A stretch of 64,000 nt of DNA from the NCBI GenBank assembly GCA_029251405.1, contig JAQXDK010000052.1:1-64000 (forward strand). Reading direction: 5' to 3'. Position numbers and translations under genes: made by a program. A model generated the notes under the pieces. That model was not told the origin of the DNA and made no database searches. It saw nothing but the letters and a program-made list of their open reading frames with translations. Within the stretch, counting starts at the first letter, position 1. Each line of letters starts with the position of its first letter. Below, one piece after another: positions 25,793-43,332 of this stretch. Source of the stretch: Flavobacteriales bacterium. Lineage in GTDB: Bacteria > Bacteroidota > Bacteroidia > Flavobacteriales_D > Parvicellaceae.

Positions 25793-26773
25793 TTATCTTA
25801 CGTAAAGACTAGATTTTACAGCATCAATAATTCTTTTAACACTTGGCAGTGCTTCTTCAATTAAAACTTTAGAAAACGCAAATGGAGTGTCTGCTTGCAT
25901 AACTCTCATAACGGGAGCATCTAAATAATCAAAAGCATATCTTTGAAGATGGAATGCAATCTCTCCAGAAATTGATGCCAATGGCCAACTTTCCTCAACT
26001 ACAACACATCTATTTGTTTTTTTAATTGACTCTACTAGGCAATCATAATCTATTGGTCTAACAGATCTTAGATCGATTACTTCACAAGAAACACCTTCTT
26101 TTTCTAAAACATCAACTGCTTCTTGAACCACTTTAAGAATTTTCCCGAAAGAAACTATAGTTATATGGTCTCCCTTCTTTTTAACTTCAGCTTTTCCTAT
26201 GGGAATCAAGTATTCACCTTCTGGTATTTCGCCCTTGTCACCGTACATTTTTTCAGATTCCATTATTAAAACAGGATCATTATCTCTGATTGCAGATTTT
26301 AAAAGTCCTTTGGCGTCATATGGGTTAGAAGGAGTTACAACTTTTAATCCTGGTACATGAGCATAAAATGATTCAAAACTTTGAGAGTGTGTAGCAGCTA
26401 ATTGACCTGCAGGACCATTTCCTCCTCTAAAGACGATAGGACAAGAATATTGTCCTCCACTCATTTGAAGCATTTTTGCTGCACTATTGATAATTTGATC
26501 TGAGGCTAATAAAGCGAAATTCCAGGTCATAAATTCAACAATAGGTCTTAAACCATTCATTGCTGCACCAACAGCAATACCTGCAAAACCAAGTTCCGCA
26601 ATAGGGGTATCTATCACTCTTTTGGGACCAAATTCATCCAGCATTCCTTGAGATACTTTGTAAGCACCATTATATTCTGCAACCTCTTCTCCCATAAGAA
26701 AGACCGTTTCGTCTTTTCTCATTTCTTCAACCATTGCTTCTCTTAGAGCTTCTCTATATTGAACCGTTCTCAT
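25793..26773 (-). CDS. pdhB: pyruvate dehydrogenase E1 component, beta subunit
   Basis: PdhB is half of the thiamine-dependent E1 of the pyruvate dehydrogenase complex. The 326-residue chain starts MRTVQYREALREAM, contains MGEEVAEYNGAYKVSQGM, ATHSQSFESFYAHVPGLKVV, and EVIDLRSVRPID. The E1 alpha, E2 and E3 genes are not in the window, so beta is encoded apart from its partners. That arrangement is familiar in Flavobacteriales. A TACTTTTG -7 element precedes it by 15 bases. Confidence 0.95.
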   Translation of the reverse strand: MRTVQYREALREAMVEEMRKDETVFLMGEEVAEYNGAYKVSQGMLDEFGPKRVIDTPIAELGFAGIAVGAAMNGLRPIVEFMTWNFALLASDQIINSAAKMLQMSGGQYSCPIVFRGGNGPAGQLAATHSQSFESFYAHVPGLKVVTPSNPYDAKGLLKSAIRDNDPVLIMESEKMYGDKGEIPEGEYLIPIGKAEVKKKGDHITIVSFGKILKVVQEAVDVLEKEGVSCEVIDLRSVRPIDYDCLVESIKKTNRCVVVEESWPLASISGEIAFHLQRYAFDYLDAPVMRVMQADTPFAFSKVLIEEALPSVKRIIDAVKSSLYVR

Positions 26774-26787
26774 AGTTTAAATTTCGC

Positions 26788-26795
26788 CAAAAGTA
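26788..26795 (-). promoter_or_regulatory. -7 promoter element of pdhB
   Basis: Read on the minus strand this is TACTTTTG, an exact TAnnTTTG match, 14 bases before the ATG at 26773. Confidence 0.55.
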
Positions 26796-26871
26796 AATCA
26801 TAAAATGAGAATTTTTAAATATTTAAAGGGTTTTTTCTAAAAATGGTACTAAAAAAATAAAATTGTTAAAC

Positions 26872-26895
26872 TTTTATTATGCATGCATAATAAAA
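26872..26895. promoter_or_regulatory. perfect 24-bp palindrome between pdhB and etfB
   Basis: The half-site TTTTATTATGCA is followed directly by its exact reverse complement, with no loop. The core is ATGCAT. It lies in the 191-base divergent region, about 77 bases upstream of the pdhB -7 element and about 36 bases upstream of the etfB -7 element. No gene ends here, so a terminator is unlikely. A binding site for a dimeric regulator is the best guess. Confidence 0.6.
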
Positions 26896-26930
26896 TGAAA
26901 TTAATTTAGAGTCAATTACAAAGAAATACA

Positions 26931-26938
26931 TAACTTTG
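26931..26938 (+). promoter_or_regulatory. -7 promoter element of etfBA
   Basis: TAACTTTG is an exact TAnnTTTG match, 26 bases before the etfB ATG. No -33 TTTG was seen at the expected distance, so activation by a factor bound upstream is conceivable. Confidence 0.55.
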
Positions 26939-26964
26939 AAAGGTAAATAAAAATTGTTTTTTTT

Positions 26965-27705
26965 ATGAAAATATTAGTCTGTATAAGTAAAGTTCCTGAC
27001 ACGACAAGTAAAATAAATTTCACTGATAACGACACAAAGTTTGATGAAAACGGTGTCCAATATATTGTCAATCCTTACGATGAATGGTATGCATTAGTAA
27101 GAGCACTTGAATTGATAGAATCAAATGGAGGTACTGTCACTACTATAACTATCGGCTCCTCTAAAGATGATCCGACTATAAGAAAAGCATTAGCAATTGG
27201 AGCAAACGATGCAGTTCGTATAGATGCCGAACCAACAGATTCATTCTTTGTTTCTAAACAAATAGCTGAATATGCAAAAAATGAAAATTACGATATAATT
27301 ATGACTGGTAAGGAAACTATTGATTATAATGGTGCTCAAGTTGGTGCAATGATTTCAGAATTAGTAGATATGCCTTTTGTTTCATTAGCAACTAAACTAG
27401 ATGTAGAAGGAACTAAAGCTACTTTAGAAAGAGACGTTCAAGCAGGAGTAGAAGTAGTAGAAGTAGAACTTCCAATTGTTCTCAGTGCAGCTAAAGGAAT
27501 GGCAGAACAAAGAATTCCAAACATGAGAGGCATTATGGCTGCAAGATCAAAACCTTTGAAAGTAGTTCCCCCATTTGAACAAAAAGAATTAACTACGGTT
27601 GTCAAGTTTGAATTACCAAACCCTAAAACAGGATGTAAGTATATAGATCCTGAAAATATGGACGAATTAGTAGAATTATTACACAATGAATCAAAAGTTA
27701 TTTAA
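26965..27705 (+). CDS. etfB: electron transfer flavoprotein, beta subunit
   Basis: EtfB pairs with EtfA to carry electrons from acyl-CoA dehydrogenases to the quinone pool. The 246-residue chain starts MKILVCISKVPDT and contains GSSKDDPTIRKALAIGANDA and the adenine-nucleotide-binding loop region AQVGAMISELVDMPFVSLATKL. The family signature VELPIVLSAAKGMAEQRIPNMRGIM is present. It is the first of a two-gene unit with etfA (2-base gap) and has a -7 element upstream. It diverges from pdhB. Confidence 0.97.
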   Translation: MKILVCISKVPDTTSKINFTDNDTKFDENGVQYIVNPYDEWYALVRALELIESNGGTVTTITIGSSKDDPTIRKALAIGANDAVRIDAEPTDSFFVSKQIAEYAKNENYDIIMTGKETIDYNGAQVGAMISELVDMPFVSLATKLDVEGTKATLERDVQAGVEVVEVELPIVLSAAKGMAEQRIPNMRGIMAARSKPLKVVPPFEQKELTTVVKFELPNPKTGCKYIDPENMDELVELLHNESKVI

Positions 27706-27707
27706 AT

Positions 27708-28652
27708 ATGTCAGTATTAGTATTTGTAGAAATCAATAACAAACTATCAAAATCAGTTCAGGAAGCAATTACCTACGGTAAAAACTTAGGTGCAGTTACT
27801 GTTGTAACCTATGGAGATGTCAACGACTCATTGCTTTTAGAAATGGGAAATTATGGAGCAGAGAATGTTCTTGTTTGTAGAAGTCTTAAAGAGAGAAACG
27901 AGCAATTACTTTCTAAACTGATAGTAAAAGCTGTAGAAAAAACCAATGCAGAGTACGTGATCCTTTCTCAAGATCAAACAGGAAAAGCTGTCGGTCCAAG
28001 AGTTGCTGCAAATTTAGGTGCAGGTCATATATCAGGTGCTATTGCTGTTCCGGAATCTTCTGAAGAATTTACTGTAAAAACAAATGTTTTTTCAGGAAAA
28101 GCGATTGCTTATGTAAGTGTTCATTCAGAAAAAAAAGTGATATCTGTATTACCAAATTCTATTCCTCCAAAAGAAGATAAAGTAGAAACATCTATAGTTG
28201 AATTCAATGAGAATTTAGGTGAAGGAAAAATAAAAGTTACTAAACTAAAACCGCTTGGAGATGGAATACCATTACCTGAAGCAGAGTTAGTAGTTTCTGC
28301 TGGAAGAGGACTGAAAGGACCAGAAAATTGGGGAATAGTGGAAGATCTTGCAAAATCTTTGGGTGCTACAACAGCATGTTCCAGGCCTGTAGCTGATATT
28401 GGTTGGAGACCTCATCATGAGCATGTGGGTCAAACAGGTGTAGCTATTCGACCAAACTTATATGTAGCTGCTGGAATTTCAGGTGCTATCCAACATTTAG
28501 CAGGTGTTAATGGAAGTAAGGTTATAGTTGTTGTTAACACTGATCCTGAAGCACCTTTTTTCAAAGCGGCAGATTATGGAGTTATCGGAGATGCTTTTGA
28601 AGTTTTACCAAGACTAACAGCATCAATCAATAATTTTAAATCTTCACAATAG
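27708..28652 (+). CDS. etfA: electron transfer flavoprotein, alpha subunit
   Basis: EtfA holds the FAD of the electron transfer flavoprotein. The 314-residue chain has the conserved C-terminal FAD domain with VSAGRGLKGPENWGIV, the LGATTACSRPVADIGWRPHHEHVGQTG segment, and VAAGISGAIQHLAGV. It starts 2 bases after etfB. An AT-only inverted repeat follows 12 bases after the stop. Confidence 0.97.
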   Translation: MSVLVFVEINNKLSKSVQEAITYGKNLGAVTVVTYGDVNDSLLLEMGNYGAENVLVCRSLKERNEQLLSKLIVKAVEKTNAEYVILSQDQTGKAVGPRVAANLGAGHISGAIAVPESSEEFTVKTNVFSGKAIAYVSVHSEKKVISVLPNSIPPKEDKVETSIVEFNENLGEGKIKVTKLKPLGDGIPLPEAELVVSAGRGLKGPENWGIVEDLAKSLGATTACSRPVADIGWRPHHEHVGQTGVAIRPNLYVAAGISGAIQHLAGVNGSKVIVVVNTDPEAPFFKAADYGVIGDAFEVLPRLTASINNFKSSQ

Positions 28653-37321: not shown

Positions 37322-38710
37322 ATGTCCCTAATTGAAAAATATATAAAAGGGATTCGTTTTCTATTACCATCTCCATTTTCAATTGCGATCATATTAACTT
37401 TATTTACGTTAGTACTTGCTTTTTTTTGGCCCACTAACATCTCTTTTGAAACCCCATCTTCTTCAAATAAGATGGAATATATTCTCAAATCTTGGTACAA
37501 CGGTTTATGGAATGTAAAAGGTCTTGCATTCGCCGTACAAATGATGTTGATGCTATTATTGGGGCATGTTTTAGCAATAAGTAAGCCAATTGATAATGTA
37601 ATTAATAAATTATTACTCTTTTGTAGCAATAATGCTAGAAGCACGTTTATTATCACATTTACTACTTTAATAGTAAGTTGGTTTAATTGGGGTTTAGGCT
37701 TGGTTTTTGGTGCTATTTTTTGTGAAAAAATCATGAATTATGCAGCCAAAAATTCTATTGGACTAAATATGGGTTTAATTGGAGCTTGTGGTTATTCGGG
37801 ATTAATGATATGGCATGGAGGTATTTCAGGATCTTCTTTAATTAAAATTTCAGAGGTAGGACATTTATCAGATTTAGCTCCTGGAAGTGTAAAAAATAGT
37901 GTTCCTCAATTTATAGATTTTTCATTAACTGTATTTTCAAGTATGAATATTTTTGTGACAGTCTCTTTACTAATCATCTTGCCAGTGTCTATGTATTTTT
38001 TTGCAAAAAAATCCAGATTAAAAGTTCCTGAAAGAGTTTTTGAAAATAAGATGGAACAGAAAAAAAATAATTTGATAGGTTTTGAAAAATTTGACCATTC
38101 CAAATTAACTGGAATTCTTCTAGGACTATTAGTTTTACTTTTTTGTTGCTATTTGGCAATAACCCATGCAGCTACCAAATCTTTGCAGTTTATTAATCCA
38201 AATTATTTAAATTTATTCTTACTTGGTCTTGCATTATTTTTTCATAAAAGTTTCTATAATTTCATAAAAGCAATTGACAATGCTATTGGTGGAACAGCAG
38301 CAATATTAATTCAATTTCCTCTTTATTTTGGCATAATGGGTATTGTTACTGACATGGGAATTGTTTCTGATTTTGCAACCTATTTTCAAAGTATTTCCAC
38401 ACCATACACCTACCCACTTTATACTTTTTTAAGTGCTGGATTAGTCAATTTCCTAGTTCCTAGTGGCGGTGGACAGTGGTACATTCAAGGTCCTTTGATT
38501 ATACAATCAACTGTAGAAATGGGAATTTCTCTAGAAAAGAGTATTATGGCTATGGCCTACGGAGACCAACTTACTAATATGATGCAGCCCTTTTGGGCAC
38601 TACCTTTGTTGGGTATAACAGGTTTAAAGGCAAAAGAGATACTGCCATACACCTTAATTATGATGGTGATAGGGTTTTTGGTTTTTAGTGCTGCATTACT
38701 TATATTCTAG
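37322..38710 (+). CDS. atoE: short-chain fatty acid transporter, AtoE family
   Basis: This 462-residue inner-membrane protein has about twelve hydrophobic segments and belongs to the AtoE family. The start FIRFLLPSPF-type sequence (KGIRFLLPSPFSIAI), HGGISGSSLIKISEVGH, and SGGGQWYIQGPLI are characteristic. It is likely to move short-chain fatty acids or acetoacetate. It begins 12 bases after the DUF3127 gene, with no functional link evident. Confidence 0.9.
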   Translation: MSLIEKYIKGIRFLLPSPFSIAIILTLFTLVLAFFWPTNISFETPSSSNKMEYILKSWYNGLWNVKGLAFAVQMMLMLLLGHVLAISKPIDNVINKLLLFCSNNARSTFIITFTTLIVSWFNWGLGLVFGAIFCEKIMNYAAKNSIGLNMGLIGACGYSGLMIWHGGISGSSLIKISEVGHLSDLAPGSVKNSVPQFIDFSLTVFSSMNIFVTVSLLIILPVSMYFFAKKSRLKVPERVFENKMEQKKNNLIGFEKFDHSKLTGILLGLLVLLFCCYLAITHAATKSLQFINPNYLNLFLLGLALFFHKSFYNFIKAIDNAIGGTAAILIQFPLYFGIMGIVTDMGIVSDFATYFQSISTPYTYPLYTFLSAGLVNFLVPSGGGQWYIQGPLIIQSTVEMGISLEKSIMAMAYGDQLTNMMQPFWALPLLGITGLKAKEILPYTLIMMVIGFLVFSAALLIF

Positions 38711-43314: not shown

Positions 43315-43332
43315 AATTTCTAATTAGAAATT
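43315..43332. terminator. bidirectional terminator palindrome after sdhB
   Basis: AATTTCTAATTAGAAATT is a perfect 18-bp palindrome, giving a 7-bp stem with the loop AATT. It overlaps the stop region of the convergent gene at 43320. T-rich sequence follows on both strands. Confidence 0.55.

Follow-up and report, generated by a model that had tools for sequence, protein, structure and literature searches.

Results

The window (the whole 64,000-nucleotide stretch of DNA that was analysed) contains the divergent genes pdhB (25793-26773, minus strand) and etfB (26965-27705, plus strand), the latter encoding the electron transfer flavoprotein beta subunit (PF01012) and followed after a 2-base gap by etfA (27708-28652, plus strand), encoding the alpha subunit (PF00766, PF01012). 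The 191-base gap between pdhB and etfB (26774-26964) houses a 24-bp perfect palindrome without spacer, TTTTATTATGCATGCATAATAAAA (26872-26895, no strand assigned), whose sequence and position are exactly those given in the initial annotation; it includes the conserved core TATGCATGCATA (26878-26889, no strand assigned), referred to below as TATGCNNGCATA. It is the sole perfect palindrome of at least 20 bases in the window, the next longest having 18 bases, and no second copy was detected in the window at up to 3 mismatches. Palindromes of at least 24 bases are expected by chance 0.03 times per 64 kb of first-order Markov sequence and in 0.2% of 191-base gaps of the same composition, in agreement with the initial claim that chance was an unlikely source; palindromes of at least 14 bases arise by chance in 15% of such AT-rich gaps. 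Two 18-bp perfect palindromes are present at 37995-38012 and 43315-43332 (0.69 of at least that length expected by chance per 64 kb).

Promoters of the Bacteroidota type carry a -7 element with the motif TAnnTTTG. On the basis of this motif, the -7 element of the etfBA promoter is predicted to be TAACTTTG (26931-26938, plus strand), 41 bases after the core and starting 47 bases from the palindrome centre, and that of pdhB to be TACTTTTG (26788-26795, minus strand), about 90 bases from the centre; both distances match those first proposed (about 50 and 90 bases). The plus-strand AAAAGTA at the pdhB -7 element is kept in 9/9 aligned genomes of the genus, whether the palindrome is present or not.

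The palindrome is the full-length form of a motif, KTATGCNNGCATAM, whose exact core TATGCNNGCATA occurs three times in the window's own genome (G000, 2.23 Mb): before etfBA, before a MarR-family gene and inside one coding sequence. The second copy (C50:20051) is centred 39 bp before a gene of 143 amino acids, here called marR1, which heads a beta-oxidation operon: marR1; 6 bases on, a 794-amino-acid 3-hydroxyacyl-CoA dehydrogenase/enoyl-CoA hydratase (the fadB product); a thiolase; and an acyl-CoA dehydrogenase (Pfam matches: MarR; 3HCDH and ECH; acyl-CoA dehydrogenase). The third copy (C47:10476) sits inside a 741-codon frame, read without an HMM test as a putative isocitrate dehydrogenase, so that, as regards the many copies in non-regulatory places which, according to the initial annotation, would speak against a regulatory site, one of the three exact copies in this genome is intragenic. 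At up to one mismatch, TATGCNNGCATA has 38 places in the genome compared to 19 for the reversed control; the places inspected were the three exact ones, C52:11511 and one beside a second MarR gene, marR2. At C52:11510 a one-mismatch copy of the 14-mer TTATGCATGCATAA falls within a 598-codon open frame, and the marR2 place is a weaker site, CTATGCATGCATTG (minus strand), between marR2 and a thiolase-fadJ-like operon. The marR2 gene is divergent from this operon (L154:2915-3489, L156-L165), and the gap holds either CAATGCNNGCATTG (L157-L159) or hybrids such as CTATGCATGCATTG (the window's genus).

The MarR1 protein (143 residues) has a MarR-type winged helix-turn-helix domain (PF01047, 38.7 bits, cut-off 24.6) and matched MarR chains in the PDB (best E 1.6e-9). 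The five Pfam families matching it at E up to 0.001 are all MarR or other winged-helix families, SarA/Rot among them, with no GntR or TetR model. According to the curated models it is neither FabT (NF050133, 33.1 bits, cut-off 200) nor BilQ (NF045593, 51.7 bits, cut-off 125).

Across 40 genomes (own included, about 108 Mb), KTATGCNNGCATAM was found 86 times, compared to 5 times for the reversed pattern. Among the 75 of these 86 sites that were listed, 17 are at etfB, 35 at marR1 and 23 elsewhere, as judged by coordinates; this sorting, like the choice of the genomes counted as MarR1-bearing (E up to 1e-30), was done by hand from tables. The site is present in all 32 MarR1-bearing genomes and in 3/8 of the others (Fisher p = 8.5e-5), these three being G004 (63% complete, site at etfB), G009 and G007 (both inside a frame); the single KTATGCNNGCATAM counted in G030 is not its marR1 site. 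A palindromic motif at the promoter of the own gene is a trait of the MarR family, and the exact core TATGCNNGCATA lies within 160 bp upstream in 30/30 marR1 loci read, own included. The motif derived from 53 distinct marR1-locus sites widens to about WTRKTATGCNNGCATAMYAW, which the window palindrome fits.

A wider sample of the class gave a similar result. The fadB product was matched at E up to 0.001 in 144/149 genomes, in some of them via shorter paralogues only, and the best 30 of the 144 were taken as loci. A MarR homologue is present within the stretch in 24 of these 30 (own included), and the exact core is centred 30-56 bp upstream of it in 21/24, being absent from L227, L229 and L251; without the own genome and G032, which are common to both sets, the figure is 19/22. 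Inspection of G000 and a few other genomes showed fadB to follow marR1; in the class sample this order results from the way the loci were chosen. At L124, L126-L129 and L143 the marR1 promoter has a pair of sites, spaced 29 bp. In the incomplete genome G010, the MarR1 homologue (C17:25224-25655) has nine internal stops in the alignment and GTATGCATGCATAC just upstream; the stops may reflect gene decay, misassembly or a faulty alignment.

The etfB set consisted of 110 loci with 102 distinct upstream regions. Exact TATGCNNGCATA was found within 300 bp in 19 of them and with one mismatch in 6 more (25/102), whereas 59 permuted half-sites gave no exact match and, at up to one mismatch, a mean of 0.49 and a maximum of 4; some of the six one-mismatch sites may be chance or altered, because exact KTATGCNNGCATAM is absent from the genomes of L063, L074 and L079. 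Likewise, TTATGCATGCATAA was found at up to two mismatches within 400 bp in 23/102 upstream regions, whereas 60 shuffled palindromes averaged 0.37 such regions and reached 5 at most. Conservation in relatives, without which the initial annotation would have abandoned a regulatory reading, is incomplete: in family genomes with a found etfB, the site is kept in 13/21 and missing in 8/21 (hand count), and one sister clade of the genus has lost it. The identical 24 bp are common to G000, G002, G004 and G006, and a decayed version is present in G001, G003, G005, G009 and G010; the first three of these keep a full-length MarR1 frame and its own site. Because the site-keeping and the site-decayed groups are separate clades (support 99/96 and 98/98), and the next relative, G018, carries the site, a single loss in the sister clade is the simplest reading.

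Twenty of the 23 sites located elsewhere were read, followed by L037 (no clear gene adjoining) and L194 (inside a frame), leaving out G022:C12. Five of the 20 precede genes of fatty-acid or pyruvate metabolism: an Oxidored_FMN protein read as a FadH-like 2,4-dienoyl-CoA reductase (L220, site inside the longest frame but ahead of the likely start); a hotdog thioesterase (L219); a 4Fe-4S oxidoreductase, presumably EtfD-like (L213); and pyruvate carboxylase (L218, by HMM; L212, by eye). The others are inside frames or before genes without a clear link. In G200 there are sites before etfB, marR1, an acyl-CoA dehydrogenase and an aldehyde dehydrogenase, and one within coding sequence; the three sites of G198 precede a marR1, a patatin-like gene and one further gene.

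The distance from the core end to the predicted -7 element is mostly 7-13 bases at marR1 (the own marR1 promoter has a weak -7 match only, TATATTTA), and falls into three groups at etfB: 41-44 (11 promoters), 51-54 (5) and 25-27 (4) bases, again to predicted elements and covering the 20/25 site-bearing promoters with an exact TAnnTTTG. In the double-site marR1 promoters, the distal site is at about the etfB position. The etfB offsets were searched for an additional weak, proximal site, lying 29 bp downstream like that of the double-site promoters, and none stood out. A weak -33 element as a mark of activation at etfB was also considered and rejected: a -33 TTG is present in 4/20 promoters with the etfB site and in 11/56 without it. 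Because it is no rarer with the site, the -33 TTG cannot tell an activator from a repressor.

Other palindromes precede etfB in sister groups. Six MAGs (Saprospiraceae, Phaeodactylibacter and Chitinophagales labels) were picked because their etfB upstream regions showed TAGCGAANNTTCGCTA, which at up to one mismatch occurs 51 times in these Saprospirales/Chitinophagales MAGs, where the reversed control gives 9 matches. The 32 loci inspected (L252-L283) have it before etfB, fadB, acyl-CoA dehydrogenase, FadH-like and Fe-S oxidoreductase genes, with other copies by unrelated genes; some copies are paired, 61-64 bp apart, and no regulator gene was found beside the sites at these 32 loci. Four further genomes (Chitinophagaceae, Chitinophagales, Segetibacter and Bacteroidetes labels) were picked for TTAGTTGCATNAACAACTAA before etfB. 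At up to two mismatches, TTAGTTGCATNAACAACTAA occurs six times in these Chitinophagaceae-type genomes (L284-L289; control, 1): before etfB in 4/4 (by choice), once before a thiolase and once before a MarR gene unlike marR1. For the MarR encoded by this last gene (L289), TTAGTTGCATAAACAACTAA is a candidate operator.

Discussion

The palindrome at 26872-26895 is very probably a MarR operator, because the same motif lies before the regulator's own gene and before other fat-degradation genes in relatives. With high confidence, we predict it to be the MarR1 operator of etfBA, tying the electron-transfer flavoprotein (ETF) to fatty-acid oxidation. What the sequences show is that the motif is shared, specific and conserved, and that it co-occurs with MarR1. 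A MarR1 dimer would bind the operator with one TATGC half-site per subunit. Members of the MarR family act as homodimers whose DNA affinity is lost when a ligand binds. The site in the marR1 promoter directly precedes the predicted -7 element, where polymerase is expected to sit; this position points to autorepression, and MarR1 bound there would block transcription of the whole fad operon. The etfBA site, centred near -58 and upstream of the core promoter, may serve to tune ETF expression in step with the fad operon, ETF being the electron acceptor of the acyl-CoA dehydrogenases. When fatty acids are available, an acyl-CoA thioester would probably release (or switch) MarR1; this ligand is suggested by the genes and by the precedents of CouR and FerC (PMC5487221).

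The marR1 site is in a repressor position, and the position of the etfB site could fit restraint or activation. As to the effect on etfBA, we lean slightly towards repression or restraint by MarR1; activation is possible and is given less credence, and some other effect is unlikely. The activating variant of this reading, in which a dual MarR1 activates etfBA from upstream and represses its own operon, we regard as conceivable and somewhat doubtful. The etfB spacing groups put the site centres near -42, -58 to -61 and -68 to -71, which are activator-like positions, and the distal of the paired marR1 sites is placed at about the etfB position; however, the etfB promoters are related, so that the groups are partly inherited, the -7 elements are predicted, and a weaker -33 element does not accompany the site. 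Repressors make up most of the characterised MarR proteins, and the family also has activators (PMC5487221).

A different protein at the same site, namely the paralogue MarR2 as its main binder, is very unlikely. MarR2 is 38% identical to the MarR1 query and adjoins fatty-acid genes, the second, divergent thiolase-fadJ-like operon, and the gap in several genomes of the genus holds CTATGCATGCATTG, near-identical to the etfB core, so that MarR2 could also bind there. In three genomes outside the genus, however, the gap holds CAATGCNNGCATTG (L157, L158, L159), with the hybrid type in L160 and L162, while the etfB site is of the TATGC..GCATA type of every marR1 locus read, and MarR2-like matches (36-42% identity) are missing from genomes with the etfB site such as G011, G012, G016 and G019.

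The initial annotation had proposed the palindrome as the site of a regulator, which it did not name, acting on etfB or pdhB. The comparative data favour an operator, put forward MarR1 as its regulator and speak for etfBA over pdhB. A divergent pdhB is found within the stretch read in 21/25 site-bearing etfB loci, but the site is kept where pdhB is missing from the stretch (4/25) or more than 400 bp away (4/25), and 27 etfB loci have a divergent pdhB without the site. Since pdhB is not always a near neighbour of the site, etfBA is the likelier target, and regulation of pyruvate dehydrogenase through pdhB instead of etfBA has only a slight probability. Finally, AT-rich gaps do favour short palindromes, but a chance or non-regulatory repeat (cruciform, terminator, mobile fragment) can practically be discounted: 24 bases are rare, genomes of the order and class share the motif at etfB and marR1, and a loop-free palindrome is unable to make a normal terminator hairpin.

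The different palindromes before the same genes in some Saprospirales and Chitinophagaceae suggest regulator replacement, and sister groups seem to rely on different regulators to keep the same pathway together. We tentatively propose, as a possibility on which we would not yet rely, that beta-oxidation in Bacteroidia forms a single conserved regulon, in which one regulator and operator have been exchanged for another between lineages: MarR1 with TATGCNNGCATA in Flavobacteriales and other members of the class, a different MarR with TTAGTTGCATNAACAACTAA in Chitinophagaceae, and another regulator with TAGCGAANNTTCGCTA in Saprospirales, with etfBA always a member, and with MarR1 activator-like at etfBA and a repressor of its own operon. 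Beta-oxidation control has, to our knowledge, been well characterised in Proteobacteria and Firmicutes; the same does not apply to Bacteroidota, a major group of marine biomass degraders. For this pathway in Bacteroidota, the present data put a name to a candidate regulator and add its predicted operator and a list of targets, and the apparent operator replacement in sister lineages is a case of a regulon that keeps its members while its regulator changes.

The MarR1/etfBA system belongs to a known kind of regulation. No published description of the MarR1 regulon or its motif was found among the matches listed from the open-licence papers searched, in which the string TATGCATGCATA occurs in one nematode paper and nowhere else. 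The Proteobacterial beta-oxidation regulators FadR and PsrA belong to the GntR and TetR families; as is predicted for MarR1, they are associated with palindromic operators spread over beta-oxidation genes and with acyl-CoA or fatty-acid sensing, and unlike them MarR1 matches MarR and other winged-helix Pfam models. In CouR and FerC, which are MarR-family regulators, DNA binding is relieved by CoA thioesters (PMC5487221). They share with MarR1 the MarR-family control of a catabolic operon, but govern the catabolism of lignin-derived aromatic acids, whereas MarR1 would act on fatty-acid oxidation through the operator TATGCNNGCATA and with a putative ligand. FabT is a MarR-family regulator of fatty-acid synthesis whose DNA affinity is raised by acyl-ACP (PMC5487221, PMC13046290). 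It resembles MarR1 in its family, in its role in lipid metabolism and in having a gene that heads its own regulated operon (Enterococcus); it differs in controlling synthesis, and MarR1 scores 33 bits on the FabT model against a cut-off of 200.
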